DNA from: an uncultured Pseudodesulfovibrio sp.
Lineage (GTDB): Bacteria; Desulfobacterota; Desulfovibrionia; Desulfovibrionales; Desulfovibrionaceae
Assembly: GCF_963677845.1 (NCBI RefSeq)
Contig: NZ_OY782498.1
Location: 258,001-322,000, forward strand
DNA length: 64,000 nt
Reading direction: 5' to 3'
The notes under the pieces are model-generated. The model was given only the letters and a program-made list of their open reading frames with translations. It did not search any database and had not been told where the DNA came from. How positions within the stretch are numbered: the first letter of the stretch is position 1; every line of letters begins with the position of its first letter. This document shows positions 15,469 to 43,910 of this stretch, piece after piece. A program made the translations under genes and the position numbers.

Positions 15469-15775
15469 GCATTGCGTGCATCCGCAGTGAGAGTGCAAAC
15501 GGCATTATTACAAAGGTTTCGCCTTTACGGCGACCTGCTTTTTTGGGGGCAAAAAAAAAGGAGGCAACAAACGCCTTTTCGGTGTGCGCCTGATAGCGGA
15601 CCTAAGAGCCTGTACGCGGCTTCGCTGCCCGACAGGATTGTCTGTGGTACAGACTTGGTCGGGCTACGCTTCGCCGCGCGTGACAGGCTCTAAGGTTCGC
15701 TATCAATTGTCCGTCGCTGCAAGGGGTTTTTCGGGGTAGGTGATCATCTTTGGTTCTAGGCTCTTCGATAATCAT
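15469..15775 (+). repeat. Repeat R1, copy a
   Basis: About 305 bases, copied at 15861-16170 and, inverted, at 43054-43361 and 43500-43806. It holds a short hairpin around 'AAGGTTTCGCC', a tract of A and G, and a 113-base imperfect hairpin at 15592-15704 whose arms begin GATAGCG and end CGCTATC. The inner tip is GTCTGT-GGT-ACAGAC. Short frames run through it but differ between copies, so it is not judged coding. Confidence 0.85.
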
Positions 15776-15860
15776 AAATAGTTTTCATTTGAAATGAGTT
15801 AGCTGCTGACTGTGAGGAAAAGTAATGAGGAAAGAGAAAAGAGGGATTTCTTTTTTTGTT

Positions 15861-16170
15861 GGGCGTTGCGTGCTTTCGCAGTGAGGGTGCAAACTGTATT
15901 ATTTCAAAGGTTTCGCCTTTACGGCGACCTGCTTTTTTCGAGGCGGAAAAAAGGAGGCAAAAAACGCCTTTTGGGTGTGCGCCTGATAGCGGACCTAAGA
16001 GCCTGTACGCGGCTTCGCTGCCCGACAGGATTGTCTAGTGGTATAGACTCGGTCAGGCTACGCTTCGCCGCGCGGGACAGGCTCTAAGGTTCGCTATCAA
16101 TTGTCCGTCAATGTAAGGGGGCGCTCGGTGTAGGTGATCATTTTTGATTTGAGGTTCTTCGATAAACTCA
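15861..16170 (+). repeat. Repeat R1, copy b
   Basis: Second copy in the same orientation, roughly 85-90% alike to copy a by eye. The 114-base hairpin is at 15985-16098. Its tip reads GTCTA...TAGAC and its second stem has one mismatch relative to copy a. Confidence 0.85.
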
Positions 16171-16277
16171 AATGATTTTGGAGTGTTAACGCTTCAATGT
16201 TTTTTATTTAAAGGTGTTTTTTTTCAACCAGCCGGGAAAAGCAGTGAAGCGAGAAAAAAGGGACTTCGTTTTTTTGT

Positions 16278-16300
16278 GGGCGTTGCGTGCATCCACAGTA
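16278..16300 (+). repeat. Truncated R1 fragment
   Basis: Only the first ~23 bases of R1 (starting GGGCGTTGCGTGC) are present before the sequence diverges. A corresponding partial copy occurs in the right-hand block at 43826-43910. Confidence 0.5.
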
Positions 16301-16368
16301 ATACATAACTTTAAATTTTACATTTCATCGCTATAAATTCGTTCTCGGTGAAGATGTCTATCTTGATT

Positions 16369-16774
16369 AAGGCTCTTCGTTATCCATAAAGGGCCTTGGG
16401 GTGCTCCAGCACCCCAACACCGCTCTCTCTCCGAAGACGATCTCTTTCCCGCCCAACCAGACGAAGACGGGACTCAGCCCTTGATCGGCGGCTTAGAAGC
16501 TGACCAATCGAAGGAGGCGGCTTTCGTCAGGGGATCAGGTAATTTGTCTTAAACTGAAGTCTCACGGGAGAGTTAGGGCTTATACTTTTAATAGGGTGGA
16601 GCCGACTCGATTGGATCAGATTTTTGCCGTCAATCATGGGGGCGGCCAAGCTAGCGCAAGCGACCTTTTTTGCTCCTTTTTTGGGCGCTGCCAAAAAAGG
16701 AGGCCCGCCCGGCAGGGCATGGAAAACGTTGGGTGCTTCAGCACCCAACAATGACTCTCGCCAAAGGCGCATCA
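16369..16774 (+). repeat. Repeat R2, left copy
   Basis: About 405 bases that align over their whole length with the reverse complement of 42521-42930. Hairpins of the form GGGTGCT-xx-AGCACCC lie near both ends (about 16395-16416 and 16729-16750). One frame, beginning near 'GAPAPQHRS' and stopping at the same place in both copies, looks protein-like. However, most differences between the copies change the residue, so it does not look like a protein under selection. Confidence 0.8.
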
Positions 16775-16929
16775 TTTTACAAAATGGAAGGTACAAACTA
16801 ACCCGTCAAAACAGGAGTTTATGGCTGTCAGAATACGAAATTTCTTTAAAAACCATAACTCATTGGTATTCATGAATCGAAGCTCATTTTAACCAACGTA
16901 ATTACCGAGTTTTTGGCGGTTCTATGACG

Positions 16930-17157
16930 TTATTTGTTTCGTCCTCTTCGACCCTTTCCCCTTCCTTGACCTCCTTGCCTCATATTTATGCCTGTAAACG
17001 GTGAACGAACAGACTGACCAGTCACCATTTTAAATAAGTACATGAGAAAAATAACAGGCCAAAAAAATGCCAATCCGACACTACTACCTACCGAGATGTT
17101 GCGGCTGTTTATATAGTATATAAAAACAGCTACTGCGATGACTAAATACAATATCAT
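16930..17157 (-). CDS. Small membrane protein
   Basis: A 75-residue protein with an AAAGGA ribosome site seven bases before the ATG at 17157. It has two hydrophobic helices (about 2-18 and 26-45) and a Gly/Arg/Lys-rich tail ('GQGRGKGRRGRNK'). No family was recognised. It stands alone between the R2 repeat and the ABC transporter operon. Confidence 0.6.
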   Translation of the reverse strand: MILYLVIAVAVFIYYINSRNISVGSSVGLAFFWPVIFLMYLFKMVTGQSVRSPFTGINMRQGGQGRGKGRRGRNK

Positions 17158-17410
17158 TATTCGTTCCTTTAATTTTCAGAAGGTCTTTTTTTGAATATAA
17201 TCATACCGCAAATAAGTGGACTTATCTTCGAAGAGACTTCCTTTTTTAAGGCTTTTTCCCATATGTGTTTCGATATTTAATTTGATTGTGCTCGTTCGAA
17301 GGAACTAAAAGCAAGATAAATTTCTGAAATGATAGAACACGAATTATGTGGGGAGGGGGGGGCTGAATATTGAGCGTTATGAACCACAGTTTTTTGGCGG
17401 ATAGGTTCTC
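17158..17410. other. Non-coding stretch, AT-rich
   Basis: No gene, hairpin or clear promoter was recognised here. It separates the small membrane protein from the terminator of the ABC transporter operon. Confidence 0.5.
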
Positions 17411-17450
17411 AAAAAAAAGCCTCCCGCAGAGGCAGGAGGCTTTTTTAATT
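17411..17450 (-). terminator. Terminator of the ABC transporter operon
   Basis: AAAAAGCCTCC and GGAGGCTTTTT flank a 10-base loop. On the minus strand the T-run follows the stem, 16 bases after the permease gene ends at 17466. Confidence 0.85.
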
Positions 17451-17465
17451 TCTCAGGTACAAATA

Positions 17466-18134
17466 CTACAACTTCATTTCTCCGGTAGAGAATTTCTTTT
17501 CCAATATGTTGGAAAGCTGAATCAACGGATAACACACTACAAAGTATAATATCCCAACAAGCCCAAAGACCATAATCCCTTCTGGCACGCGTTGGACAGT
17601 GAGCCATCCGGCACGGGTGATATCTGTCAATCCGATAACTGAGACGATGGAGGAATCCTTGATGAGCAATACATACTGCCCGACAAGAGCTGGTAATGCC
17701 ATGCGTAATGCCTGTGGCAACACCACGAGAATCATCGCCTGGTTTCGCGTGTGCCCCAGAGAGCGGCAGGCCTCTTCCTGACCTGACGGAACAGCTTGAA
17801 TGGACGCAGACACGATCTCACAGATGTAGGACCCTGCATAGATGGTCAGACTGACCACCGCCGCAGTGAGGGCTTCCATCTGCAATCCGAATTCCGGCAG
17901 GATGAAGAAGATGATGAATAGTTGGACAAGGAATGGTGTTCCGCGCATAAAATCAACATAGATTGAAAGAATGCGCGACATGAATGTGCCTTCGTTGGAA
18001 CGCAGGATACCGGTGATGACACCAATAATGGTGCCGCCGACAAGACTGAGCGCCGACACTGCTACAGTAACACCCATGCCTTTGTAAAACATGGGCATAC
18101 TGTTCATGAGTTGGTCGAAGTAAAATCCCCACAT
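17466..18134 (-). CDS. Polar amino-acid ABC transporter permease
   Basis: A 222-residue HisM/GlnP-type inner-membrane permease. The ATPase-docking EAA loop is present as 'QEEACRSLGHTRNQAMILVVLPQA' and about five membrane helices are visible. It pairs with the permease immediately upstream (18138-18806) to form a heterodimeric channel for the binding protein at 18871-19665. No ATP-binding subunit is encoded next to them. Confidence 0.92.
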   Translation of the reverse strand: MWGFYFDQLMNSMPMFYKGMGVTVAVSALSLVGGTIIGVITGILRSNEGTFMSRILSIYVDFMRGTPFLVQLFIIFFILPEFGLQMEALTAAVVSLTIYAGSYICEIVSASIQAVPSGQEEACRSLGHTRNQAMILVVLPQALRMALPALVGQYVLLIKDSSIVSVIGLTDITRAGWLTVQRVPEGIMVFGLVGILYFVVCYPLIQLSNILEKKFSTGEMKL

Positions 18135-18137
18135 GGC

Positions 18138-18806
18138 TTATGCGCTCCTGAAGCGCGTCATGCGCATTTGGTAGTATTTGGTCAGTCCCTTGAGCACATA
18201 GTAGACGAGCAGGTAGAGGACGGCCACAGTCAGGAAGGCTTCGGACGGCATGAATCGCTCGGAGTTGAGCATCTGCCCGGCGCGAGTCAGTTCCATCACC
18301 GAGATGAGGGATAACACAGCGGAGTCCTTGACCAACACGATGGCCTGCCCGAGCATCGGAGGCAATGTGTTGGCAAGAGCCTGAGGCAGAATGACGTAGA
18401 AAAACCGTTGATAGACGTTGAACCCTTGTCCCATGGCGGCTTCAACCTGTCCGGCTGGAATACCCTTGATTCCGGCTCGGAGGATTTCAGCCACGTACGC
18501 TCCGGAGTTGAAGGAGAGAGCCACGATGCCGGTTGTCAGTTCATTGACCTGAATACCGAGGGAAGGAAGTCCGAAGTAAAGAAAATAAAGTTGAGCCAGC
18601 AGGGGAGTGGACCGGATGACTTCGATGAAGGCAATGGCCGGGGCTGCAAGCAATTTGATTCCTGAAATTCTGCAGGAACAGGCAATCATGCCCACGATGA
18701 GTGAGCCAATGATGCCGACCAACGAAATCCAGGCAGTATGGTACAGCCCCTCCATGAACAGGGGCATGTACTCCCAGATGATGCGGAAGTTGAAATATTC
18801 GAGCAT
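18138..18806 (-). CDS. Polar amino-acid ABC transporter permease
   Basis: 222 residues when started at ATG 18806 ('MLEYFNFRII'), chosen because it gives the same N-terminal length as its partner permease; TTG 18863 and ATG 18836 are in-frame alternatives and none has a strong ribosome site. The EAA loop reads 'QVEAAMGQGFNVYQRFFYVILPQA'. It is translated from the same message as the binding protein and the second permease. Confidence 0.9.
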   Translation of the reverse strand: MLEYFNFRIIWEYMPLFMEGLYHTAWISLVGIIGSLIVGMIACSCRISGIKLLAAPAIAFIEVIRSTPLLAQLYFLYFGLPSLGIQVNELTTGIVALSFNSGAYVAEILRAGIKGIPAGQVEAAMGQGFNVYQRFFYVILPQALANTLPPMLGQAIVLVKDSAVLSLISVMELTRAGQMLNSERFMPSEAFLTVAVLYLLVYYVLKGLTKYYQMRMTRFRSA

Positions 18807-18870
18807 GTGCGACGAATCCGTATGAAGATGCGCCATGCCTCGTGAAGAGACATGGCGCAGCAATTACGGT

Positions 18871-19665
18871 CTAGTGATCTTTTTCCCAGGCCTTGGAATC
18901 GACCCAGTACTTGATGTTTTCGTCGTAGCGGCCATCGGACTTGACCCAACCGAAGAAGAGGTTGACCCACTGGCGCAGTGTTTCGTCTTCATGACGGACG
19001 GCGAAGGCCAGAGGCTGCTTGGACATGATGTCACCCACGAAGTGCGTGGAGTTCGGGGGGAAGGAAGCCAGGCTGCCGGAGATGGAAGTCTTGTCGTTGA
19101 CAGCCACGTCAGCCTTACCAGCCATGATGGCATTTAGGAGCATTGGGCCGCCACCTTTGTAAGACTTGATCTCAGCCTTGGGGAAGAGGCGCTTGGCATC
19201 AGCTTCGCCAGTACCACCGAGCAGGACGGCGACTTTCATGCCTTCCTTGTTGATCTGGTCCCAGCTTGTGATCTTTGAATCGGCTTTGGCAACGGCGACA
19301 GAACCTGTGTAGTAGAATGCATCGGTGAAGGACACTTTGAGTGCACGCTGAAGGTTGGCGGTCATATCTGCGGCCAGCATGTCTGCTTTACCAGACAGCA
19401 GGGCAGGAATCAGGCCGTCCCAGTCGTAATCCAGAAATTTGATTTTGACGCCCATTTCTTTGGCCATCAGGCGGCAGAATTCGACTGAAGAACCGGTACG
19501 GTCACCATTTTTGTCCAGAAAACTGAACGGGGGACATTGGGTTTGGACGGCAACGCGAAGTTCGCCGCGCTTGACGATTTCAGCCAGTGCATCTGCAGAT
19601 GCGGTAGAAGCTACGGCCAGCATCATGGACAGCATGAGTGCCAGGCAAATTGAAAGACGTTTCAT
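18871..19665 (-). CDS. Periplasmic amino-acid-binding protein
   Basis: 264 residues from ATG 19665, which has a near-perfect AGGAGG five bases upstream. A signal peptide ends 'ASTASA'. The SBP family 3 fold shows in 'RGELRVAVQTQCPPFSF', 'GSSVEFCRLMAKEMG', 'DWDGLIPALLSGKADM' and 'MNAIMAGKADVAVNDK'-like segments. It captures a polar amino acid for the two permeases downstream. First gene of the operon; the exact substrate cannot be read from sequence. Confidence 0.92.
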   Translation of the reverse strand: MKRLSICLALMLSMMLAVASTASADALAEIVKRGELRVAVQTQCPPFSFLDKNGDRTGSSVEFCRLMAKEMGVKIKFLDYDWDGLIPALLSGKADMLAADMTANLQRALKVSFTDAFYYTGSVAVAKADSKITSWDQINKEGMKVAVLLGGTGEADAKRLFPKAEIKSYKGGGPMLLNAIMAGKADVAVNDKTSISGSLASFPPNSTHFVGDIMSKQPLAFAVRHEDETLRQWVNLFFGWVKSDGRYDENIKYWVDSKAWEKDH

Positions 19666-19873
19666 TATTCCTCCTATAATGTTCAATAAAAAGTCTGATC
19701 TAATCCGAATATGAGCGAATTGCGGTCAGTGCCATAGTAAGGTCGGGTTTAGCCGTTCCTGCGGTCGCAGGTTCGGCCATCGGGAACGCTACTGGATGTA
19801 CTTGGCTTTTGCAAGAGCGTGTCGTTATTTTCTCGGCGTGAGAGTGAGGATTATCAGGAGGTTGGAGAAACGG

Positions 19874-19909
19874 AAAAAGCCTCTGACAACATATGTTGTC
19901 AGAGGCTAT
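19874..19909 (-). terminator. Terminator of tRNA-Arg
   Basis: GCCTCTGACAAC and GTTGTCAGAGGC form a 12-bp stem with an ATAT loop. Read on the minus strand it is followed by TTTTT and begins within about ten bases of the tRNA 3' end. Confidence 0.85.
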
Positions 19910-19915
19910 ATTCTC

Positions 19916-19992
19916 TGGTGCGCCCGGCACGATTCGAACGTGCGACCTTTCGGTTCGTAGCCGAATGCTCTATCCAGCTGAGCCACGGGCGC
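19916..19992 (-). tRNA. tRNA-Arg (anticodon ACG)
   Basis: Read on the minus strand the gene begins GCGCCCG, with D-arm 'GCTCAGCTGGATAGAGC', anticodon stem-loop TTCGG-CTACGAA-CCGAA (anticodon ACG, wobble A likely edited to inosine), T-loop 'GTTCGAATC' and an acceptor end closing with CGGGCGC-A-CCA. The 3' CCA is encoded. Confidence 0.96.
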
Positions 19993-20043
19993 GTCGTGGA
20001 AAGACTGTTTATGCTTAGGGGGCGTTATACGTCAAGCACTTTT

Positions 20044-20475
20044 TTAGAAATTTATTAATTTAGTGGAAAAAACATCAGAAAAACCCTCAACAAGTTCAGC
20101 TGATTTTCCTTCTATGCGTATCAATTCAGTGTCGGGATGCTCCGCAAAGTCCTTCATGTGCGGGCTTTTCAGGAGAAATAGTTTGATAATGGCGTTCACT
20201 GTTTGTTGTTTTTTGATGGGCGAGTACACTCCGGTGATGGACAGGGCGCTATTTTCATCCCGTCGGTCGATGAGTATGCTGACATGTGGATTCTTTTTAA
20301 GGTTTTTGCTTTTTTTTGATGTCTTGGATGACAGAAAGTAAAATTTCATGACTGCATGGTCTGCAAAGTAGTTCATCAGGGACGTGTGAGGCGTGTTGCC
20401 ATCGGAAGTGGCCAGCACACAGATATCCTTACCCTTGACCATGTCTTCAATGAGTTTCATTTTTTGCTTGCTCAT
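20044..20475 (-). CDS. Pyridoxamine 5'-phosphate oxidase-like flavin-binding protein
   Basis: A 143-residue split-barrel protein: 'DICVLATSDGNTPHTSLMNY' opens the FMN-binding barrel, followed by 'FYFLSSKTSKKSKNLKKNPHVSILI'. Such proteins bind FMN, F420 or haem and often act as small reductases or stress proteins. The specific substrate is unknown. It is transcribed divergently from the PAPS-reductase-family gene at 20538. Confidence 0.82.
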   Translation of the reverse strand: MSKQKMKLIEDMVKGKDICVLATSDGNTPHTSLMNYFADHAVMKFYFLSSKTSKKSKNLKKNPHVSILIDRRDENSALSITGVYSPIKKQQTVNAIIKLFLLKSPHMKDFAEHPDTELIRIEGKSAELVEGFSDVFSTKLINF

Positions 20476-20537
20476 ACGAGGGATACTACAGCACTCTTCC
20501 TCGCAGGGCCATTATATAATGAATAGGAAAATGCCGT

Positions 20538-21215
20538 ATGCTTACCCTCGATGAAAAAATAGCCGGGACTGAGTCCCTTCTGCAGACATTGGTTGAAAAT
20601 GTTGACCTTGAACGAGTGCGCGTAGCCTGGACTGGCGGTAAGGACTCTACTGTTGTCCTTTTTATCTGGAAGGCGGTGCTCGACAATATAGGGGGAGGGC
20701 CTATCCATGCTATTAATTTGGATACCGGTTGCAAATTCCCTGAAGTCATGGCCTTTCGTGATGCTTTGACCGCAGAATGGGGTGTTGATTTGTATATTGC
20801 CCGTCCGAAAATCACATTGGACGGCTACCCGCTGGCAAAAGATCCACTTTCCTGTTGTCGTGAATTGAAAGTTGAACCGCTCAAACAGGCTGTTATCGAG
20901 ACCGGAGCCTCACATGTTTTGAGTGGTATTCGTTTCGATGAACATCCAGATCGCGCCGAGCGAAGTGCAGAAGAACAACGGGACGATCCTCCTCATTATA
21001 TGATTAACCCTATCCTTGATTGGACTGAAATAGATATTTGGGCTTTTCATGACCGTTTCAATCTTCCGCATTGTGAACTCTATGACAAAGGGTATCGATC
21101 ATTAGGATGTATGCCGTGTACACAGCGGCCAACGGACGGGGATGGCGAACGGTCTGGGCGTGCAGCTTCCAAGGAAGCTATTTTACCGACTTTGACCAGT
21201 CTTGGTTACTTCTAA
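20538..21215 (+). CDS. Phosphoadenosine phosphosulfate reductase family protein
   Basis: 225 residues with the PP-loop 'AWTGGKDSTVV' near residue 30, the CysH-type segment 'PLSCCRELKVEPLKQ' and a C-terminal 'GYRSLGCMPCTQRP'. The Cys pairs resemble those holding the iron-sulfur cluster of APS-type assimilatory reductases. In a sulfate reducer this could serve assimilation or sulfur transfer rather than respiration. The exact substrate (APS or PAPS) is not certain. No cysD/cysN gene is adjacent. Confidence 0.82.
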   Translation: MLTLDEKIAGTESLLQTLVENVDLERVRVAWTGGKDSTVVLFIWKAVLDNIGGGPIHAINLDTGCKFPEVMAFRDALTAEWGVDLYIARPKITLDGYPLAKDPLSCCRELKVEPLKQAVIETGASHVLSGIRFDEHPDRAERSAEEQRDDPPHYMINPILDWTEIDIWAFHDRFNLPHCELYDKGYRSLGCMPCTQRPTDGDGERSGRAASKEAILPTLTSLGYF

Positions 21216-21547
21216 TTTTCACATGAAAAAGTCCTGATTTGTTTGTTTGGATGGTATTTACTGTTTTTGTTTGAGATTTTTTTCACAAAATTCCACCCTT
21301 TTTTGTATCTATTTATATGGGTCTATGTACCGGAAGCCTTTTATTCCAATATATCAGACGATTATTGGTTTGTTTTTGTATGGCTTTTTTTAGGGTTTGG
21401 GTCTTGACCAAACAGTATTCTTCCCATAAGACCTCATGGTTACTAGGCTAAGGGTAAAGTGCATTCGCACTGAAATTCGGTTGGAGGTGAACCGGATTTT
21501 CACGTGTCTGTTGTACTCGTTCTCCATTCTTTTGAAACGAGGTCTTC
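21216..21547 (+). promoter_or_regulatory. Leader region of the ech operon with candidate promoter
   Basis: 332 bases without a gene. A plausible sigma-70 promoter is TTGACC (21404-21409) with a 17-base spacer and TAAGAC (21427-21432), about 115 bases before echA. A small inverted repeat TTTGG/CCAAA overlaps the -35 (about 21396-21413) and could be an operator. The first ~180 bases are T-rich with nothing recognisable. Confidence 0.4.
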
Positions 21548-23446
21548 ATGTCGAATTTGCTACTGCTTCTCATTCTCCTGCCAGTGGTTTCAGCATTGGT
21601 CTGCTATTTCGTTCGGTCTTCCGCCGTTCGAAAGCTGACAGTGCTTGGTACTGCTGTGGTCCTGACGCTTGCGTCTGTGGGACTGCTTATGCAGGGGACT
21701 TTTGAGCCGATTGCAGTCGGTTCATTCCTCGGCATCAGCAGCGATTTCCTGATTACGGTTCTGGATTTCGCATTGTTGGGTGTCATTTTTTATCTCGGTC
21801 TCAAACACAAGAGCTTACTGATTCAGGGTTTTACTCTGGCTCAGGCTGCACTGCTCGTTTGGTTTGAAGTTGTTGTGCTTGAGCACGACGCCGTTCCCGC
21901 TCTTGTGGGTGATCAGCTCGCTCTGATTATGGTTCTGGTGATTTCTATCATTGGTTCCCTGATCTGCGTGTTTGCCATTCCTTATATGAAGGAACACGAA
22001 GAGCATCTGCACCTGAAGAAGTCTCGCCAGCCGCGATTCTTCTTCTATCTGGTGTTGTTCCTTGGCGCCATGAACGGTTTGGTTCTGTCCAATAATATTC
22101 TGTGGATGTATTTCTTCTTTGAAGTCACCACGTTGTGTTCCTTTATGCTGATCGGTCATGATGCCACCGAGATTGCTACCAAGAACGCTGTCCGCGCATT
22201 GTGGATGAACGCTCTTGGCGGTCTGGCTTTCGTTGTCGGCATGATGCTGGTCTACATGAAGGCTGGAACTCTGGACATCTCTGCAATTCTTGCTGCCGGC
22301 CCTCAGGGCGCGCTCATGATTACTGGTGTTGGCTTTCTGTGTCTCGCCGGTTTCACCAAAGCCGCTCAGGTACCGTTCCAGAGTTGGTTGCTTGGTGCCA
22401 TGGTCGCTCCGACCCCGGTTTCCGCTCTCTTGCACTCTTCCACCATGGTCAAGGCCGGTGTTTTCGTGGTTCTGCGTTTCGCCCCCGCGTATGTTGGCAC
22501 CTTCCTTTCCACTGGTGTTGCCATCTGTGGCGCATTCACTTTCGTGACTTGCGCAGCGTTGGCCATCGGTCAGTCCAATGGTAAGAAAATCCTGGCGTAT
22601 TCCACTATCTCCAACCTCGGTTTGATCATTTGCTGTGCGGGTATCAATACTCCGCTGGCATTGACCGCCGCTGCCATGTTGATCGTGTTCCACGCCGTTT
22701 CCAAGTCTTTGCTGTTCCTCTGTGTCGGCACGATCGAGCAGGCCATCGGCTCTCGTGACATCGAAGATATGCGCGGCTTGTATGCCAAACTTCCCCGTAC
22801 CGCTTTGATCACCGTGATCGGTATCCTGACCATGCTCCTGCCGCCGTTTGGTGTGCTCATGTGCAAGTGGATGGCTATCGAAGCCGGTGCTGATACCAAC
22901 ATCTTCATTGTGACCATGCTCGCATTGGGTTCCGCATTGACGGTTGTTTACTGGGCTCGTTGGGGTGGTTCCATGATGAGTTCCCGCGAACAGGATACCC
23001 GGACTGAATCCCAGCCCATGCTCACCAGCCTGCCGCTGATGTTGCTGTGCGGGGGTGCCATTGTCCTGTCTCTGGCTTCTCCCTGGATCTATAATTCTAT
23101 GCTGGCTCCCTGGCTCGGCACAGCTCCGTTCACTGTGAGCTTCGGCTCCTTGAACTCCGCCACCGGCTCCTTTGCTGTGGTTCCGCTGTTCCTTGCTTTG
23201 GGTCTGGGCGTGCTTTTCGCTGCCAAGGCCGCTGCAGGTTTCCGCAAGGTCAAGATTATGCCGCCTTATTTGGGTGGCGCGAATTCATCTACAGATGGTA
23301 CTTACATCGGCCCCATGAATGGCGATGTACCGTTTGCAGCTGGCAACATGTATCTGGGCGAGCTGTTCGCTGAAGGGAAGCTGACGCCTATCTTCAACGC
23401 ACTCGCGATCGCTTTGATTGTGCTTATGCTGGGAGGGGCGATCTAA
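21548..23446 (+). CDS. echA: Ech hydrogenase subunit EchA (ion-translocating antiporter-like)
   Basis: A 632-residue integral membrane protein with about 16 hydrophobic helices, homologous to the NuoL/MrpA-type subunits of complex I. The conserved Glu/Lys ion-path segments include 'MYFFFEVTTLCSFMLIG' and 'GFTKAAQVPFQSWLLGAM', with 'PTPVSALLHSSTMVKAG' following. It is the likely proton or sodium pump of the energy-converting [NiFe] hydrogenase. GAGG lies seven bases before the ATG. First gene of echABCDEF; the stop overlaps the echB start by one base. Confidence 0.95.
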   Translation: MSNLLLLLILLPVVSALVCYFVRSSAVRKLTVLGTAVVLTLASVGLLMQGTFEPIAVGSFLGISSDFLITVLDFALLGVIFYLGLKHKSLLIQGFTLAQAALLVWFEVVVLEHDAVPALVGDQLALIMVLVISIIGSLICVFAIPYMKEHEEHLHLKKSRQPRFFFYLVLFLGAMNGLVLSNNILWMYFFFEVTTLCSFMLIGHDATEIATKNAVRALWMNALGGLAFVVGMMLVYMKAGTLDISAILAAGPQGALMITGVGFLCLAGFTKAAQVPFQSWLLGAMVAPTPVSALLHSSTMVKAGVFVVLRFAPAYVGTFLSTGVAICGAFTFVTCAALAIGQSNGKKILAYSTISNLGLIICCAGINTPLALTAAAMLIVFHAVSKSLLFLCVGTIEQAIGSRDIEDMRGLYAKLPRTALITVIGILTMLLPPFGVLMCKWMAIEAGADTNIFIVTMLALGSALTVVYWARWGGSMMSSREQDTRTESQPMLTSLPLMLLCGGAIVLSLASPWIYNSMLAPWLGTAPFTVSFGSLNSATGSFAVVPLFLALGLGVLFAAKAAAGFRKVKIMPPYLGGANSSTDGTYIGPMNGDVPFAAGNMYLGELFAEGKLTPIFNALAIALIVLMLGGAI

Positions 23447-24294: not shown

Positions 24295-24297
24295 ATC

Positions 24298-24741: not shown

Positions 24742-24762
24742 GCGTGTCCACAGAGGTATAAT

Positions 24763-25131: not shown

Positions 25132-25140
25132 GGGGCTGAA

Positions 25141-32835: not shown

Positions 32836-32961
32836 GGGTGCCTCCGGCGGCTGGGGGAAGGGGAAGAGGGACAACCCTTTGGAAAGGGTTGTCCCTCTTC
32901 CCCTTCCCCCAGACCCCCATCCCTATCTCCTTTCCTAAACTTTTTGTGTGCGCTTCGCGCA
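32836..32961 (-). repeat. Hairpin repeat R3, copy a (inverted)
   Basis: Contains a perfect 30-bp stem with a two-base loop at 32851-32912, flanked by GCCTCCGGCGGC and by a segment 'TTTTTGTGTGCGCTTCGCGC'. Reversed, this matches the pattern of R3 copies b and c. Confidence 0.75.
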
Positions 32962-32982
32962 GGGGAGGAGATTGTTTAGTTT

Positions 32983-33080
32983 TGAAGAGCCTCGCCGAAG
33001 GCGCGATAAAAAGTTCTGGAAGGGGAGTCCAGAGGGGGAACCTCTTTCAAGAGGTTCCCCCTCTGGTCGCCGAAGGCATC
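32983..33080 (+). repeat. Hairpin repeat R3, copy b
   Basis: Forward copy. The stem CCAGAGGGGGAACCTC / GAGGTTCCCCCTCTGG lies at 33029-33066 and the copy ends 'CGCCGAAGGCATC'. Together with copy a it fills the 403-base gap between proS and the exporter; nothing coding was seen in the gap. Confidence 0.75.
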
Positions 33081-33823: not shown

Positions 33824-33916
33824 CCTTGCGCGAAGCGCACACACAAAGTTTAGGAGAGTCCAGAGAACCTTTTTCAAAGGGTTCTCTGGTCCCCCCGAAG
33901 GGGCCGCCGGAGGCAT
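33824..33916 (+). repeat. Hairpin repeat R3, copy c, supplying the xseA ribosome site
   Basis: Forward copy with stem CCAGAGAACC / GGTTCTCTGG (33860-33889) and the segment 'GCCGCCGGAGGCATC' at its end. The GGAGG inside that segment (33909-33913) lies six bases before the TTG start of xseA and is the only ribosome site there. Confidence 0.75.
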
Positions 33917-33919
33917 CCA

Positions 33920-35338: not shown

Positions 35339-35349
35339 TAGGTATATTT

Positions 35350-36333: not shown

Positions 36334-36345
36334 GTTCCAGATTTC

Positions 36346-37281
36346 ATGAAAAATATATCCGTCTTGTTGCGTGGGCTCTGCCTGCCGATTGTTGTTGTGT
36401 GCTTGTTGCTGCCCGCTTTTGCCGGTGCTGCCGGAATGGTCGAAATCGAGTCCCCGGACACTATTGGCGTGGGTAAACCGCTCCTTGTCAACGTGACCTC
36501 CTGGTATCCGCTTGATGATGTCCTTGTGCAGTGGGCTGGTCGAGAAGTCCGACCGACCATCACTCAAAGTGGTGGGAAATATCATGCGCTGGTGTATCTC
36601 GGGATTCGTTTGCGTGGAGAGCTTGGCGTGTACCCTATTAATGTGACAGCATCCTTTTGGGGCCACACATATACGTTCACCAAAGATATCAACGTGGTCG
36701 AGTCAGCGTGGGGCAAGGAAACTCTGTCGGTTCCGCCGAAGATGGTTAAACCGCCCAAGGAGGCATTGATACGGATTGCGAAAGAACGAGAACGTATCAA
36801 GGCCGTAATCAATACGGTTTCCCCTGAGCGGTATTGGAAGCTGCCATTTTCCAGACCTGCCAAGGGGAAGATGCTCAGTCGTTTCGGGCTTTACAGAATT
36901 TTCAACGGTGACACGGCGAGTCGTCACACAGGGTTGGATTTTCGTGCCTGGGAAGGTACTCCTCTGTATGTCATGGCTGCCGGAAAAGTTGTTTTGAAGG
37001 GGAACTTTTACTATGCTGGTAATTGCATATATGTAGACCATGGAAATGGTTTCGTTTCCATGTACGCTCACATGTCCAAAGTATTGGTCAATGAAGGGGA
37101 TATGCTGACATCAGGCCAGAAAATAGGCCTGTCCGGTGCTACGGGCAGAGTGAATGGGGCACATCTTCATTTGGGAACTTTTGTTCAGGGACAGGTCGTT
37201 GATCCTGAACCGTTGTTCTCTATAAATGCTGATACAATGCCGCAGTTGGGATGGATTGATGGCATACACACCGCTCAATAG
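36346..37281 (+). CDS. Secreted M23 (LytM-type) peptidase, paralogue
   Basis: 311 residues, aligning with the previous gene along its length: signal peptide ending 'AGAAG', a beta domain with 'VQWAGREVRPTI', and a LytM domain with 'HTGLDFRAW' and 'GAHLHLGTF'. All four zinc residues are present, so both copies are probably active. Its stop lies inside the next gene. Confidence 0.9.
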   Translation: MKNISVLLRGLCLPIVVVCLLLPAFAGAAGMVEIESPDTIGVGKPLLVNVTSWYPLDDVLVQWAGREVRPTITQSGGKYHALVYLGIRLRGELGVYPINVTASFWGHTYTFTKDINVVESAWGKETLSVPPKMVKPPKEALIRIAKERERIKAVINTVSPERYWKLPFSRPAKGKMLSRFGLYRIFNGDTASRHTGLDFRAWEGTPLYVMAAGKVVLKGNFYYAGNCIYVDHGNGFVSMYAHMSKVLVNEGDMLTSGQKIGLSGATGRVNGAHLHLGTFVQGQVVDPEPLFSINADTMPQLGWIDGIHTAQ

Positions 37282-37846
37282 AATACTGCTTGGCGCAGTC
37301 GCTCCGATAGCCATTTATTATATCGGGCGCGAACTCGATATGGCGTTGGTTGGAGCCGTGGCTGCGTCTCTTTGGGGTTTAGGCGTATTGGGTTGGTTTT
37401 GGGTCACGACAGGTGAGGCCGACGGGTTTTCCGGGATTGGTGCAGCCTATGCGCTTTCAGAATTGGCCGGAGTGCTGGTCATGCGTGACCCGGACTGGTA
37501 TTTGATGTCTCCCATCGTGTCGGATTGGGTGCTGGGTGGAATATTCCTCGCGTCCATGGGCGCGCGCAGGCCGCTGATTCAGATATTGGCTGAACAAATG
37601 GCTGGCATCGACGCCTTTCCAGAGGAGATCAGGACGGGCAAATATTATCGTCCGCTTTGGCTCCGACTGAGCTTTTTTTGGGGCGGCGCGTATGTGCTTA
37701 AGGGCGCGGTAGCGTGGGGTATTATGAACTCCATGTCTGTAGAAATTTATTTGGCGGCAAGGTTTGTCCTTGGCTGGCCGGTCGTGGTCGGTCTGATCGC
37801 TTTGAGCTACTGGTATCCCCGGCGATATTGGCAGCGTGTCATGTGA
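37259..37846 (+). CDS. VC0807-like integral membrane protein
   Basis: 195 residues from ATG 37259, which overlaps the M23 stop. About five to six membrane helices. 'FGSDWVLGGIF'-type and 'LWLRLSFFWGGAYVL' segments resemble the family of septation-A-like or VC0807 membrane proteins. The biochemical role is unknown. It sits between the wall peptidases and xseB. Confidence 0.6.
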   Translation: MAYTPLNRILLGAVAPIAIYYIGRELDMALVGAVAASLWGLGVLGWFWVTTGEADGFSGIGAAYALSELAGVLVMRDPDWYLMSPIVSDWVLGGIFLASMGARRPLIQILAEQMAGIDAFPEEIRTGKYYRPLWLRLSFFWGGAYVLKGAVAWGIMNSMSVEIYLAARFVLGWPVVVGLIALSYWYPRRYWQRVM

Positions 37847-37863
37847 CCTGAATGGAGTTGAAT

Positions 37864-38103
37864 ATGGCAAAAGATACGTTTGAAAAGAAATTGGAAAGGC
37901 TCAAGGAAGTGGTCGATAAGCTGGAACGCGGCGATCAGCCTTTGGAAGAAGGTGTGGCCTTGTACAAAGAAGGTCTTGAATTGGTCAAAGGGTGTGGCTC
38001 CCAGTTGGAGAACGCTCGCAATGAAGTCAGGATCGTGTCCGAAGGGCTGATCAAGGAATTCGATGCACTGAGTGAACTCGGTGATGATGCGGAGGAAGCA
38101 TAG
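37864..38103 (+). CDS. xseB: Exodeoxyribonuclease VII small subunit
   Basis: 79 residues from ATG 37864 (GGAG seven bases upstream; a start at 37852 is less likely). Typical XseB pattern: 'FEKKLERLKEVVDKLERGDQ' and 'LEEGVALYKEGLEL'. It forms the coiled-coil partner of XseA. The stop overlaps the GTG start of ispA by one base. Confidence 0.93.
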   Translation: MAKDTFEKKLERLKEVVDKLERGDQPLEEGVALYKEGLELVKGCGSQLENARNEVRIVSEGLIKEFDALSELGDDAEEA

Positions 38104-39008
38104 TGACCGTCAAGGAACAGTTGGCACAGCGTGCCGAAACCGTTGAATCGTTTCTTTCCGGGTGCATGAAGGACCGTGGCATTCCGGCTCGTCTGCTCAA
38201 GTCTATGGAATACTCTCTGCTGGCTGGTGGCAAGCGATTGCGGCCAGTATTGGTCCTGTCATGGGCTACAATGTTGGCTCCTGATGATGCGGACATGGGG
38301 GATAAGGTCATGCCCTTTGCGGCATCCCTTGAGTGTATCCATACCTATTCGCTTATTCACGACGATTTGCCTGCCATGGATGATGATGACCTGCGTCGAG
38401 GCAAGCCTTCCAATCACAAACAATTTGATGAAGCTACTGCTATTTTGGCTGGTGACGGCCTGCTTACTGAAGCCTTCGGGCTGATGAGTGCGGCCTCTAT
38501 CGTCAAGGGATTGCCTGCCGATCGTGTTTTACGCGCTATTTATGTGCTGGCCACTGCGGCTGGTTCCGGTGGTATGGTCGGTGGTCAGGTTGTCGATATG
38601 GAGTTTACAGGTCGGGATGACGTGCCGCTTGAAGAGTTGCGCGAGATGCATGCCATGAAGACCGGTGCGCTTATTACCGCAGCCTGCGAGTGTGGGGCTA
38701 TCCTGTCCGGCGCGGATGAATCGGACATCGACAATGCCCGTGAATTCGGCAAGTCAGTTGGCGTTGCGTTCCAGATTGTGGACGACGTACTCGATGTTGT
38801 CAGCGACACGGAAACATTGGGTAAACCAGCTGGCAGCGATGAAGAAATGGGTAAGTCGACCTACCCGTCACTCATAGGCCTTGAGAAGAGTAAGCAGTTG
38901 GCATCACAGTATATCGATGCTGCCTTGAAACACCTTTCGAATTGTACTGGATCTGAAAAAGAATTTCTTGAACACCTCGCCCGCTACATAGTGGACAGGG
39001 TTTACTGA
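38103..39008 (+). CDS. ispA: Farnesyl/geranyl diphosphate synthase
   Basis: 301 residues from GTG 38103, with GGAGGAAG upstream. Two Asp-rich motifs are present: 'HDDLPAMDDDDLRRG' (first) and 'QIVDDVLDV' (second). It joins IPP and DMAPP into C10/C15 prenyl diphosphates. xseB, ispA and dxs are adjacent as in many proteobacteria. Confidence 0.95.
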   Translation: MTVKEQLAQRAETVESFLSGCMKDRGIPARLLKSMEYSLLAGGKRLRPVLVLSWATMLAPDDADMGDKVMPFAASLECIHTYSLIHDDLPAMDDDDLRRGKPSNHKQFDEATAILAGDGLLTEAFGLMSAASIVKGLPADRVLRAIYVLATAAGSGGMVGGQVVDMEFTGRDDVPLEELREMHAMKTGALITAACECGAILSGADESDIDNAREFGKSVGVAFQIVDDVLDVVSDTETLGKPAGSDEEMGKSTYPSLIGLEKSKQLASQYIDAALKHLSNCTGSEKEFLEHLARYIVDRVY

Positions 39009-39029
39009 TTGGAATAAAGTTTATCCCTT

Positions 39030-40928
39030 ATGATAAAAGACCCCATGAAGACAGAGATTCTGTCTAAAATAAATAAGCCCAATGATGTTCACGGTTTGGA
39101 AGGTGACGAACTTGATGTTCTCGCCCACGAATTGCGTGACATTATCATCAGTCAGGTGTCCGACCACGGTGGACATCTTGCGCCTTGTCTTGGTGTTGTT
39201 GAACTGACTCTTGCTTTGTTCAAGTCATACGACCTTGATAAAGACAAACTGGTCTGGGACGTCGGGCATCAGGCCTACGCTCATAAATTGCTTACCGGAC
39301 GGCTCAAGGAATTTTCGACGCTGCGTCAAAAGGACGGTCTCAGCGGGTTTCCCCGTATGGCCGAGTCCGAGTATGATCATTTTGGCGTGGGCCATTCCTC
39401 CACATCCATATCTGCTGCACTTGGTATGGCCATGGCGCGTGACCTCAAGGGTGATGATAACGAAGTTATCGCGGTTATTGGGGATGGTTCTCTCACAGCC
39501 GGATTGGCTTTTGAGGGGTTGAATCAGGCGGGTGATCTTGGTCGCAAGATGGTTGTGGTTCTCAATGATAACGAGATGTCCATTTCAAAAAACGTGGGTG
39601 CATTATCCCAGTTCCTGAGCCGCAAGATGACCACGCCGTTTTTGCAGCGGTTGAAGAGCGATGTGGAAGGACTGCTCGCAACTATTCCCAAGATTGGTGA
39701 TGATCTGGCTGGATACGCCAAGCGCTATGGCGATTCCGTGAAGTCTTTCTTTACTCCCGGTATCCTTTTTGAAGCATTTCATTTTACCTATGTCGGTCCC
39801 ATTGACGGGCACGATACGGCCAAGATGGTCAAGGTTTTTGAAGAGATCAAGAAGCTCGACAAGCCTGTGCTCGTGCACGTCATGACCAAGAAGGGCAAAG
39901 GATATGAACCGGCGGAGTCTGACCCCTCCCACTATCACGGGGTTGGCAAATTTATTCCTGAAACCGGTCTGGCTCGTAAATTTTCTGGCTCTGGACTGCC
40001 ATCATATACGTCCATTTTTGGGTCCACGCTGTGCGCTTTGGCAGAGAAGGATGAGTCCATCATGGCCATCACCGCCGCCATGCCCGAAGGCACTGGTACC
40101 GAATGTTTTCATGAGCAGTTCCCGGAGCGTTTCGTGGACGTGGGAATCTGTGAACAGCACGCGGTCACGTTCGCGGCTGGGTTGGCGACGCAGGGATTCA
40201 AGCCTGCGGTAGCGATCTATTCCACTTTCCTGCAACGGGCCTATGATCAAATTATTCACGATGTTTGTTTGCAGAATCTGAATGTGAATTTCTTTCTTGA
40301 TCGTGGTGGGCTTGTTGGCGAAGACGGTGCCACACATCACGGTGCATTTGACATGAGTTTTTTGCGACAGGTCCCGAATCTTGTGGTTATGGCTCCCAAG
40401 GATGAGGCGGAGCTTGCCCAGATGATGGCTACGGCCTTTGCGTATGACGGCCCGTGTGCCATGCGGTATCCACGCGGTACCGGCGTTGGGGCAAAGGTGT
40501 CCAAGACTCCCCGTAAAATTGCCATAGGCAAAGGGGAACTCATGCACGATGGAAAGGATGCAATCATCATTACCATCGGTTCACGTGTCTATCCTGCTGT
40601 GGAAGCGGCTATGGAGTTGGCAGACGATGGCTTGGACGTGGCGGTTTTCAATAGTCGGTTCGTTAAGCCTCTGCCTGAAAAACAGTTGCTGGAGTTGGCG
40701 GAACGGTTTGATCGTATCTTGCTGGTGGAGGAAAATGCTGAGGCTGGCGGTTTTGGTTCTGCTGTTCTTGAATTATTAGCCAGACATGATATTCTGAAAG
40801 ACAAAGTGGTCCGTCAACTTGGTATACCCGATGAGTTCGTTGAGCATGGTACGCAAAAAGAATTGCGCTCCATGCTTGGCATAGACAAAGCTGGTATAAA
40901 GAGGGCCATGGGTACTTTATGTAGCTAA
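39030..40928 (+). CDS. dxs: 1-deoxy-D-xylulose-5-phosphate synthase
   Basis: 632 residues, thiamine-diphosphate enzyme. The TPP/Mg motif 'GDGSLTAGLAFEGLNQAG', the 'GHSSTSISAALGMAMA' segment, the pyrimidine domain 'DVGICEQHAVTFAAGLA' and the C-terminal 'VENAEAGGFGSAV' are all intact. It makes DXP, the first step of the MEP route. ATG 39030 was used; ATG 39045 is also possible and neither has a strong ribosome site. Confidence 0.96.
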   Translation: MIKDPMKTEILSKINKPNDVHGLEGDELDVLAHELRDIIISQVSDHGGHLAPCLGVVELTLALFKSYDLDKDKLVWDVGHQAYAHKLLTGRLKEFSTLRQKDGLSGFPRMAESEYDHFGVGHSSTSISAALGMAMARDLKGDDNEVIAVIGDGSLTAGLAFEGLNQAGDLGRKMVVVLNDNEMSISKNVGALSQFLSRKMTTPFLQRLKSDVEGLLATIPKIGDDLAGYAKRYGDSVKSFFTPGILFEAFHFTYVGPIDGHDTAKMVKVFEEIKKLDKPVLVHVMTKKGKGYEPAESDPSHYHGVGKFIPETGLARKFSGSGLPSYTSIFGSTLCALAEKDESIMAITAAMPEGTGTECFHEQFPERFVDVGICEQHAVTFAAGLATQGFKPAVAIYSTFLQRAYDQIIHDVCLQNLNVNFFLDRGGLVGEDGATHHGAFDMSFLRQVPNLVVMAPKDEAELAQMMATAFAYDGPCAMRYPRGTGVGAKVSKTPRKIAIGKGELMHDGKDAIIITIGSRVYPAVEAAMELADDGLDVAVFNSRFVKPLPEKQLLELAERFDRILLVEENAEAGGFGSAVLELLARHDILKDKVVRQLGIPDEFVEHGTQKELRSMLGIDKAGIKRAMGTLCS

Positions 40929-40947
40929 TTCAACAAGGAGACATTCC

Positions 40948-41856
40948 ATGCCCCACACGGTCGCTTTTCGTGATTATCAGGAACGACATAAGGGGGTTCT
41001 CCGGAAGTCGCGACGGTTTGTACGGGCTGTTGCCACTGTTTGGCACTGGATGGGATGGGGTGGCCGAAAATTAGGTTTTTATATTCCGTACCGTTGGGCA
41101 GGTTCTCTGTCCGGGATCACTGAAAAAGATACATATCATTGGTTGAAAAATCTTTGGGATAGTGATCGTTCCGCTTTTCAGCTTTCGTTGGCGCATATTG
41201 AACGTTATCTTGACCGGTTGGGCGAATTCTCGATGGAATGCCCGGAGGATCGGGACAGGCCTCGTTTTGATCAGAGTTGGTGTCCGGGATTGGACGGGGC
41301 TGCAGCCTATTCGTTTGTCCGAGAGTTGCAACCAGCTACCATCATCGAAATAGGTTCGGGGCATTCTTCGCGATTCATGGCAAAGGCTATCGTTGATGGT
41401 GGCCTTTCTACCCATTTTATATCGATTGATCCTCAACCACGGCGCGGAATCGACCATCTGTGCTCAGAAGTTTTTCGTCAGACCGTGGATCAGGTTGATC
41501 TATCGTTATTTTCGTGTCTTGAATCAGATGATATTTTGTATTTTGACGGAAGTCATATAGCCATGCCCGGTTCGGATGTGGATATGCTGATCAATCAGAT
41601 ATTGCCACTGTTGAAGTCCGGCGTATGGGTCCATTTCCATGACATTTTCTTGCCTCATGGGTACCCGGACATATGGCAATGGCGGGGATATAACGAACAG
41701 AACGTGGTTGCAGCTTTGCTCGCCGGGGGGAGTGGTTTTAACGTTCGCTTCGCGAGTGCGTACGTGCGTCGGTATATGTCCGACGAGATAGCTGGTTGGC
41801 CCATTCCGATGCCGGAAAAGGCCTTTGAATCCAGCCTATGGCTTTCGGTCGTTTAG
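40948..41856 (+). CDS. Class I SAM methyltransferase (Methyltransferase_24 type)
   Basis: 302 residues. The SAM-binding motif is 'IIEIGSGHSSRFMAKA' near residue 132, followed by 'ISIDPQPRRGID' and 'LYFDGSHIAMPGSDVD'. The first ~90 residues are a family-specific region with no known domain. The methyl acceptor is unknown; relatives modify small molecules or glycans. It begins 19 bases after dxs and ends one base before the convergent ychJ-like gene. Confidence 0.75.
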   Translation: MPHTVAFRDYQERHKGVLRKSRRFVRAVATVWHWMGWGGRKLGFYIPYRWAGSLSGITEKDTYHWLKNLWDSDRSAFQLSLAHIERYLDRLGEFSMECPEDRDRPRFDQSWCPGLDGAAAYSFVRELQPATIIEIGSGHSSRFMAKAIVDGGLSTHFISIDPQPRRGIDHLCSEVFRQTVDQVDLSLFSCLESDDILYFDGSHIAMPGSDVDMLINQILPLLKSGVWVHFHDIFLPHGYPDIWQWRGYNEQNVVAALLAGGSGFNVRFASAYVRRYMSDEIAGWPIPMPEKAFESSLWLSVV

Positions 41857-41857
41857 A

Positions 41858-42346
41858 TTAACGACCGCAGCATTTTTTGTATTTTTTGCCGGAACCGCAT
41901 GGGCAAGGCTCATTGCGTCCGATTTTGGGTTCTTTGCGGACCGGTGGTCCGGAGACCATATCTCCATCCACATAATACCATTTGCCGTCATCCTTGCGGA
42001 AGTGACTGCGTTCACGGTGAGAAAGTTCTTCTCCGTCGATAGCGTAGTTGGCGGAAAATTCCACGATGCCGTCGGTGTCTTCTTCAAGACCGGCCCAAGT
42101 GTCATGGACAGTCAGGCCAAGCCATTCGGCTTTTTCAGACCATTCGCGAACAGATTCCTCGTCGTGTCCTTTCAGAGTTTCGGGCGCGAGGCTCACCTTG
42201 AGGTAATCAAGTTCGTTGAGCACGTATGCGGAATACCTGGCGCGCATGAGCGCTTCGGCTGTGGGCGCGTCGGCCTCACCGGAAATATAGGGGGTGCAGC
42301 ATTGGGCAGTTTCTTTGCCGGAGCCACATGGGCATTTTTGAGACAT
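41858..42346 (-). CDS. YchJ-family protein with SEC-C motifs
   Basis: 162 residues from ATG 42346 (GAGGGAAG upstream). Zinc-binding SEC-C motifs lie at both ends: '[14 protein letters not shown]' and '[16 protein letters not shown]'. The middle is an NTF2-like YchJ domain ('[14 protein letters not shown]'). YchJ proteins have no settled function. A longer frame reaching 42565 runs into repeat R2 and was not used. Confidence 0.85.
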
Positions 42347-42487
42347 ATTGCTTCCCTCGGTTTGAGTTTGGTTCGCGGATTGTAGAGATTTGTTGGTGTG
42401 TGTCAATGAGTAATGATTGAGTCGCTTCGAGCAGCGAGCCTGAAGTAGTCGGGGTTTAAAGTCTGATGGGAAATAATAAGCAAGGAT

Positions 42488-42512
42488 GGCCGCTTTGGAA
42501 GCGGCCTTTTTT
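42488..42512 (+). terminator. Plus-strand terminator beyond ychJ-like gene
   Basis: GGCCGCT (42488-42494), a five-base loop, AGCGGCC (42500-42506) and a T-run. No plus-strand gene ends nearby. It could stop read-through from the dxs operon, which would run antisense across the ychJ-like gene. Confidence 0.7.
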
Positions 42513-42520
42513 ATTGGAAA

Positions 42521-42930
42521 GATGCGCCTTCGGCGAGAGTCATTGTTGGGTGCTGAAGCACCCAAGGCTTTCCATGCCCTGCGCGGGCGGCGGATCTTTT
42601 TGGCTGAGCCGCCCCAAAAAGAACCAAAAAACTCGGCTCACGAGCTTGGCCGCCCCCATGATCGGCGGTAAGAATCTGATCCAATCGAGTCGGCTCCACC
42701 CTATTAAAAGTATAAGCTTTGCCTTTCACCTCATCCTTCAGTTTAAGACAAATTGCCTGATTCCCTGACGAGAGCCGCCTCCTTCGATTGGTCAGCTTTT
42801 AAGCCGTCGATCAAGGGCTGGGTCCCGTCTTCGTCTGGTTTGGCGGGGAAGAAATCTTCTTCGGAGGGAGAGCGGTGTTGGGGTGCTGGAGCACCCCAAG
42901 GCCCTCTATGGTGAGCGAAGAGCTGATTAA
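42521..42930 (-). repeat. Repeat R2, right copy (inverted)
   Basis: Reverse complement aligns end to end with 16369-16774, with the same terminal GGGTGCT/AGCACCC hairpins (about 42547-42566 and 42875-42896) and many shared blocks. Identity by eye is about 80-85%. Confidence 0.8.
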
Positions 42931-43053
42931 GTTTGTGTTTGATTGGGAGAAAGAACCTTTGAGGGAAAGATAGCATTGAAATGTTAATTGTTCATGGTTG
43001 TCGAAGAGTCCGAGTTAAAAAAGGGGATGAAGTAAGATTCAAAAATTAAGTAT

Positions 43054-43361
43054 GATTATCGAAGAACTTTGAATCAAAGATGAGCACCTACAACGAGAAG
43101 CCCCTTACATCGACGGATAATTGATAGCGAGCCTTAGAGCCTGTCCCGCGCGGCGAAGCGTAGCCCGACCGAGTCTATACCACAGACAATCCTGTCGGGC
43201 AGTAAAGCCGCGTACAGGCTCTTGGGTTCGCTATCAGGCTCACAGCGAAGAAGGCGTTTTTTGCCTCCTTTTTTTCGCCTCAAAAAAAGCAGGTCGCCGT
43301 AAAGGCGAAACCTTTGAAGCAATACCGTTTGCATCCTCACTGCGAAAGCACGCAACGCCCA
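43054..43361 (-). repeat. Repeat R1, copy c (inverted)
   Basis: Inverted copy of R1. The hairpin lies at 43123-43235. Its tip, read in R1 orientation, is GTCTGT-GGT-ATAGAC with one G-U pair where copies a and d have G-C. Confidence 0.82.
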
Positions 43362-43499
43362 TCAAAAATATTAACCCCTCTTTTTTTTTCTTCATTGCTC
43401 TTTTTCCCCTGTCAGTCTTAAAATTTTCTGTTTGTTGGCAAAAAAAGTACCTTTGGAGGTAAAATGCTGTTGAGGCGTTAACTTTTCAAAATTATGTAT

Positions 43500-43806
43500 G
43501 ATTATCGAAGAACTTTGAATCAAAGATGAGCACCTACAACGACAAGCCCCTTACATCGACGAACAATTGATAGCGAGCCTTAGAGCCTGTCTCGCGCGGC
43601 GAAGCGTAGCCCGACCGAGTCTGTAGCACAGACAATTCTGTCGGGCGGTGAAACCGCGTACAGGCTCTTGGGTTCGCTATCAGGCTCACAGCGAAGAAGG
43701 CGTTTTTTGCCTCCTTTTTTTCGCCTCAAAAAAAGCAGGTCGCCGTAAAGGCGAAACCTTTGAAACAATGCCGTTTGTATCCTCATTGCGAAGCACGCAA
43801 CGCCCA
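43500..43806 (-). repeat. Repeat R1, copy d (inverted)
   Basis: Inverted copy of R1. The hairpin lies at 43569-43681; its tip is GTCTGT-GCT-ACAGAC in R1 orientation. It is followed at 43826-43910 by a diverged, truncated third copy that keeps only the first third of the element. Confidence 0.82.
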
Positions 43807-43825
43807 CCAAAATAAAAGTCCCTGC

Positions 43826-43910
43826 TTCCTCCCCGAAAGGAGCAAGTCACTGTAAAGGCGTAACCTCTGCAATAATATAGGTTGCCACCTCACTGCGAAA
43901 GCACGCAAGA
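43826..43910 (-). repeat. Diverged truncated R1 copy
   Basis: Keeps the end of R1 that carries 'AAAGGCG' and 'GCGAAAGCACGCAA' but not the 113-base hairpin. It corresponds to the fragment at 16278-16300. The remaining bases up to arfB hold a small stem AATCCGG/CCGGATT at about 43937-43956 without a T-run. Confidence 0.6.

Follow-up and report, generated by a model that had tools for sequence, protein, structure and literature searches.

Dispersed R1n-R2 intergenic repeats around the replication origin of a Pseudodesulfovibrio chromosome and their probable part in large and small inversions

The subject of this study is a stretch of 64,000 nucleotides (hereafter the window) from an uncultured Pseudodesulfovibrio sp., namely positions 258001-322000 of its source genome, G000, a single contig of 3,701,887 bases (G000:C1:258001-322000). 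The window carries two oppositely oriented blocks built from two repeated modules, which we call R1 and R2, and an earlier note on this DNA had taken the blocks as a mirror-image pair able to drive the inversion of the segment between them. Our analysis shows that they belong to a family of repeats with a fixed order of modules, that members of this family have exchanged flanks with one another, and that these events include pairs placed symmetrically about the origin of replication. We therefore consider it highly probable that the blocks are dispersed, non-coding R1n-R2 intergenic repeats around the origin, and that opposed copies supply the homology for inversion. The earlier note described a true feature and the right process, but the wrong pair; what we describe is a new repeat family engaged in a known kind of process.

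The repeat family, its hairpin and its place around the origin

Genome-wide, G000 contains 20 blocks whose R2 measures 300 nt or more, together with a few shorter pieces, and the two blocks of the window, far from forming a special pair, are simply two of these 20. In 19 of them one to three copies of R1 come first, in the remaining one there is none, and R2 then follows, with a single orientation being kept within each block. The R1 unit measures approximately 393 nt, with a core of approximately 310 nt, and R2 approximately 400-430 nt (328 nt in one G000 block). In many copies R2 is followed by a third module, R3, with a hairpin that resembles an intrinsic terminator; when one such tail was used as a query in G000, 12 of the 14 matches sat at the end of an R2. 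The order R1 before R2 recurs in loci read from G029, G002, G010, G007 and G023 (relatives are given by such numbers throughout), and the loci read from G006 and G022 contain R1 only. Three loci of G010 (L080, L191 and L192) are longer arrays, with up to four copies of R1 and two to three consecutive copies of R2.

Matches to the left block of the window were found in 31 of 36 Pseudodesulfovibrio genomes, its own included, and in none of 24 genomes from other families of the order, with six candidates scored per genome, and for this reason the R1-R2 repeat looks like a genus-level feature. The R1 model gave no match in G015, yet a DNA query did. An exact 30-base R1 pattern was found in nine stretches of a species collection, all of them from Pseudodesulfovibrio MAG (metagenome-assembled genome) isolate OB3, in a collection that may omit our source genome or its near relatives. 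Judging by lists of open reading frames (ORFs), the blocks look intergenic. The orientation of neighbouring genes, judged by the longest ORF lying up to 1.5 kb away, was set aside as it looks erroneous for the right block at least. Coding sequence was considered and rejected, as no frame is free of stops throughout all copies, the shortest stop-free run per frame being 19-66 aa among 35 copies of R1 and 20 of R2. The repeat reaches no family of Rfam: only a tRNA scored above threshold in the window, and the left-block region gave four weak matches lying far under the gathering threshold. In openly licensed PubMed Central (PMC) papers we found no account of an R1-R2 repeat among the matches listed.

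Could the repeats be non-autonomous mobile elements, similar to miniature inverted-repeat transposable elements (MITEs), that are still spreading, so that some of the apparent rearrangements would be new insertions? We regard this as possible, albeit doubtful. Occupancy is indeed patchy: the right block of the window is present in G000 and G026, its site gave no match in G029, G006, G002 and G010, and the left block is absent from G026. That said, the ends of the 20 blocks, compared by eye only, show no shared inverted sequence, the 5' end being the start of R1 and the 3' end being R2 with its tail. What is more, the repeat has no match, at the blastn level, in plasmid and phage collections, and the Y1 transposase of the RAYT type (PF01797) has no matches in G000 or G025, as compared with one each in G026 and G029 and three in G010. 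Insertion alone would not swap flanks. A target duplication is unreadable here, because the unoccupied sites (in G026, G029, G006, G002 and G010) do not align cleanly, base for base, around the blocks.

Two known kinds of dispersed repeat invite comparison. BIME, REP and REPIN sequences are mosaic repeats of enterobacteria and pseudomonads with palindromic units of 20-40 nt. Like them, R1-R2 repeats appear intergenic, palindromic, modular and dispersed, with a conserved hairpin; unlike them, they have units of 310-430 nt, ordered as R1n-R2, which are well above the short units typical of that class. An identity with REP/RAYT was ruled out on account of this unit size, R1 measuring ~393 nt and R2 ~405-426 nt, and of the missing Y1 transposase gene in G000 and G025. 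BOX elements of Streptococcus pneumoniae are likewise intergenic and modular, with one module in variable number, as is the case for the R1-R2 blocks. Compared by description, however, the two differ in the sizes of their modules, and the R1-R2 repeat has no match in Rfam.

R1 contains an imperfect palindrome of approximately 119 nt. We aligned it across 30 R1 copies of our own choosing from nine genomes, and 16 of its 29 predicted pairs turned out to be compensated by changes on both sides. In particular, 97.3% of the cells pair; shuffles reach 85.2%, and shifting the partner by 1-3 columns lowers the figure to 30-39%. Four of the five pairing measures beat all 500 shuffles; the number of further pair types, by comparison, fails to exceed the shuffles (25 against a mean of 26.8). 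These statistics ignore the relatedness of the copies, and the independent compensating events are fewer than the cells counted, because many copies share inherited changes. Folded as DNA, the hairpin at window positions 15984-16099 has a z-score of -6.0 on one strand and of -7.5 on the other. Taken together, the compensated pairs and the shuffle test speak for an R1 hairpin that is probably maintained as a structure, be it in DNA or in RNA.

Each of the 14 genomes searched has two DnaA-C homologues, which in G000 lie at C1:770334 and 3268687, 1.2 Mb apart. We placed the origin at the 436-aa homologue (3268.7 kb in G000, 2537.5 kb in G025) because GC skew, in the pieces read, changes sign near its gene, namely between 2989 and 3291 kb in G000 and between about 2251 and 2558 kb in G025. 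The other homologue, at which the records of G025 and G029 start, was ruled out as the origin in G000 and G025 by the same skew. Relative to the origin so defined, the block loci of G000 span -731 to +1018 kb, and comparable limits hold in G025, G026, G029, G002, G006, G010 and G033. For all eight genomes, the mean distance of blocks from the origin is below that of a uniform spread, with a chance probability of at most 2e-3 in each; the origin was assigned in six of them by which DnaA homologue matched, skew having been tested in G000 and G025. It should be noted that the searches in the seven relatives scored a restricted set of candidates, so that their block lists are minimum ones, that those of G025 and G026 include scraps and were drawn from the stretches read, that the length of G033 was rounded to 4.0 Mb, and that the eight genomes are not independent, block positions being partly inherited. 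A common direction of the blocks relative to the origin was rejected, since 11 of the 20 in G000 point towards it and directions are mixed in G002 and G033, although eight of the nine block loci of G010 do point towards the origin.

Insertion bias, loss elsewhere and function are all candidate causes of this clustering. A stronger functional reading would make the R1-R2 blocks landmarks of the origin half, that is, a conserved and compensated hairpin element kept no farther than about 0.5-1.0 Mb from the origin on both arms, with opposed copies licensing mainly those inversions that balance the replichores; this we hold to be unlikely.

Exchange of flanks between opposed copies

The case for inversion at the repeats is carried by three exchanges (2538 with 301 kb, 2627 with 237 kb and 118 with 110 kb in G000 coordinates), all of them reciprocal and between oppositely oriented copies. 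The first joins the right block of the window, at 301 kb, with the block at 2538 kb, 1.5 Mb away across the origin, the two lying at +734 and -731 kb from it. In G025, the inside flank of the right block now adjoins what is the left flank of the 2538-kb block in G000, the outside flank adjoins its right flank, and each product retains an ordered R1-R2 block. The identical two junctions are present in G035, a separate assembly. In G026, both sites are whole, as in G000, and since G026 is the less similar genome (79-84% identity in long alignments, as opposed to 87-93% between G000 and G025), the order in G000 is the older one at these sites. The second exchange is a reciprocal swap of flanks between the 237-kb and 2627-kb blocks, seen in G026 relative to both G000 and G025, at positions that by arithmetic are about +671 and -643 kb from the origin.

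The third exchange is of a different scale. Namely, the blocks at 110 kb (- strand) and 118 kb (+ strand) enclose 7.4 kb that are reversed in G025, and the single readable junction in G026 agrees with G025; by parsimony, resting on that one junction, G000 would here be the changed form. In G000 these two blocks share an identical run of 689 bp, the longest among the 171 pairs that can be formed from its 19 blocks above 500 nt, as expected after a recent exchange. No other pair of this genome is a better candidate for inversion that is still going on. Within this mirror pair (G000:C1:110165-119605, L181), ORFs of the enclosed 7.4 kb resemble, by eye, leuS and ribBA. A further segment, of 12.2 kb (G000 2678.6-2690.8 kb), is bounded by opposed repeats in both G025 and G026 and is reversed in the one as compared with the other. 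In all three exchanges, inverted copies stand at both ends and the flanks are reciprocally exchanged, which is what defines repeats that mediate inversion by homologous recombination. As a separate observation, a 5-kb segment beside a repeat differs in place between two relatives (G025:C1:2930851-2936054 and G026:C1:2293004-2297608), as if it had moved between repeats.

A census of breakpoints, counted for the pairs G025/G026 and G000/G025, points in the same direction. Between G025 and G026, all eight breakpoints have a repeat no more than approximately 130 bp away in one genome or in both, in one case on a single side. Between G000 and G025 there are ten, of which six fall in full G000 blocks and nine coincide with a repeat in G000, in G025 or in both. 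Finally, in nearly contiguous G000 stretches totalling 451 kb (interrupted by 4 kb at 113-117 kb and by some 100-base gaps), five of nine breakpoints are found in blocks that cover 3.3% of the sequence, the probability of which by chance is 4e-6.

Several points weigh against assigning the inversions to the repeats. The census covers sampled stretches, a part of each genome, and it leans towards blocks because the stretches were partly chosen where a block flank was missing. At some breakpoints there is no more than a scrap of repeat (77-121 nt), or a repeat on one side; the 237-kb block in G000 is itself a remnant of 167 nt, and one G026 product of its swap with the 2627-kb block carries only a 57-nt match to R1. 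One pair of breakpoints that is nearly symmetric about the origin (58863-58897 and 2763575-2763665, G000:C1) has no repeat at the G025 junction. Moreover, the inversions are read from a comparison of assembled sequences.

One could go further and argue that the repeats are bystanders, breaks being tolerated in the gene-poor gaps in which blocks sit. The apparently intergenic position of the blocks would fit this, as would the symmetric breakpoint pair without a repeat, but tolerance of breaks does not lead one to expect three reciprocal exchanges of flanks between oppositely oriented copies, an ordered R1-R2 block in both products of the right-block exchange, or the fact that the closely spaced pair that flipped is also the most identical one. 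We consider the bystander explanation distinctly unlikely.

If opposed repeats are indeed the homology for inversion, crossing-over between two such copies, presumably by homologous recombination of the RecA type, would flip the DNA between them. Exchange across the origin would then give rise to megabase inversions that leave the replichores equal, and exchange between neighbouring copies on one side to small flips; the large inversions may survive because they are balanced about the origin. Known mediators of origin-symmetric inversions are rRNA operons or insertion sequences. The present exchanges resemble those in having inverted homology at both ends and symmetry about the origin, and differ in that the homology is a non-coding repeat which is itself concentrated around the origin. 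Origin-symmetric inversion as such is a known process (PMC9584773, PMC12863080).

The two blocks of the window

The opposite orientation of the two blocks in the window, and the distance of about 25.7 kb between their inner edges, are borne out by our analysis (left +, right -), and both blocks consist of two copies of R1, a fragment and an R2. Still, they are not exact mirror images, because the scraps of the third R1 come from different parts of the unit and sit in different positions; in other words, the truncated R1 that the earlier note saw in both copies is not a shared one. The features are as follows, in window coordinates.

15461-16775, + strand: left block (R1, R1, R1 scrap, R2)
15461-15785, + strand: first R1 copy of the left block (BLAST against the R1 unit, 88% over 326 nt)
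15591-15705, + strand: long R1 hairpin (imperfect palindrome) of the first left copy; arms located, aligned and folded
15857-16250, + strand: second R1 copy of the left block (unit spacing 393-394 nt; served as query)
15984-16099, + strand: long R1 hairpin of the second left copy; arms located
16277-16299, + strand: R1 scrap of the left block, 23 nt (R1 positions 4-26), between the second R1 and R2
16350-16775, + strand: R2 of the left block, from the repeat search
42443-42520, - strand: R3, the terminator-like tail after R2 in block direction; matched by the tail of the 119-kb block
42521-43908, - strand: right block (R2, R1, R1, R1 scrap in window order)
42521-42923, - strand: R2 of the right block, 87% identical to the left R2
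42924-43957, no strand: right-block stretch bounding the exchange with the 2538-2539 kb block, as deduced from the flanks
43033-43364, - strand: inner R1 copy of the right block (BLAST)
43440-43809, - strand: outer R1 copy of the right block (BLAST)
43826-43908, - strand: R1 scrap of the right block, 83 nt (R1 positions 10-92), outermost in the block

For the R3 of the right block, a search with the 119-kb block's 3' flank gave a match at G000 300443-300527. The two R2 copies align over 407 nt at 87% identity (E 1e-139), far above chance. The blocks as a whole are not near-identical: they agree at 84-87%, and their longest common exact run is 45 bp, which ranks 166th among the 171 pairs introduced above.

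In G025 and G035, both of which have the left block, the left flank, the left block and the inner segment follow one another just as they do in G000; the inner segment then continues into a block at the right-hand site with its orientation unchanged. G026, with the right block only, is collinear with G000 in this region, and in G029, G006, G002 and G010, where neither block was matched at these places, the parts that align are collinear as well. The synteny check proposed earlier thus yielded an exchange of the right block with the block at 2538 kb, and no relative that we read has the 25.7 kb flipped at the left and right blocks. G023 does carry an inversion, of window positions ~27-41.5 kb, but its breakpoints do not coincide with the block sites and show no R1-R2 match; its inverted region is split by more than 100 kb (L074 and L078, at 350.5-370 kb and 218-228 kb). 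Over the whole window, GC skew keeps a positive sign. By these comparisons there is no evidence of past flipping of the 25.7-kb pair, whose homology is poor: it could flip, but probably has not detectably done so. The idea that such repeats drive inversion hence stands for other block pairs, which have exchanged flanks, and is not shown for the pair for which it was put forward.

It is very improbable that the two blocks are a dedicated switch, with the 25.7 kb flipping and both forms held in the population: opposed orientation, homology exceeding 1 kb at either end and the flipped segment enclosed by the other mirror pair of the family (110/118 kb) would favor it, but the low rank of the identical run, the orientation to the left flank kept in all seven of the above relatives, with or without the left block, the G023 breakpoints lying off the block sites and the uniformly positive skew all speak against it. 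Typical of site-specific invertible switches are short identical sites and a recombinase gene dedicated to them. The pair in the window is similar in that inverted repeats surround a segment able to flip, and dissimilar in that the R1-R2 ends are long and diverged.

As for the genes between the blocks, described earlier as housekeeping genes, ispG, proS and dxs score over the NCBIfam cut-offs, and the genes called ech that we tested gave matches to models of the NuoL/NuoD type that remain under cut-off. Genes of an amino-acid ABC transporter (window 17466-19686) adjoin the left block in G000, G025 and G035 and occupy the same place in G026; the corresponding place in G029, G006, G002 and G010 gave no match. 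Window positions 32840-33027 hold a different, GC-rich palindromic repeat, which has matches in G002 and G023 loci, too.

Meaning for the genus

Desulfovibrio piezophilus is a species now placed in Pseudodesulfovibrio. Its genome report describes very few insertion sequences, which it reads as a sign of few rearrangements, and suggests that a low number of these elements may mark the D. piezophilus group (PMC3559428). In genomes that are poor in insertion sequences in this way, the R1-R2 repeats would offer another route to inversions both large and small. What is more, their concentration around the origin in eight genomes ties this repeat family to the architecture of the chromosome, and the question of whether insertion, loss, selection or function sets the positions of the blocks becomes a testable one.

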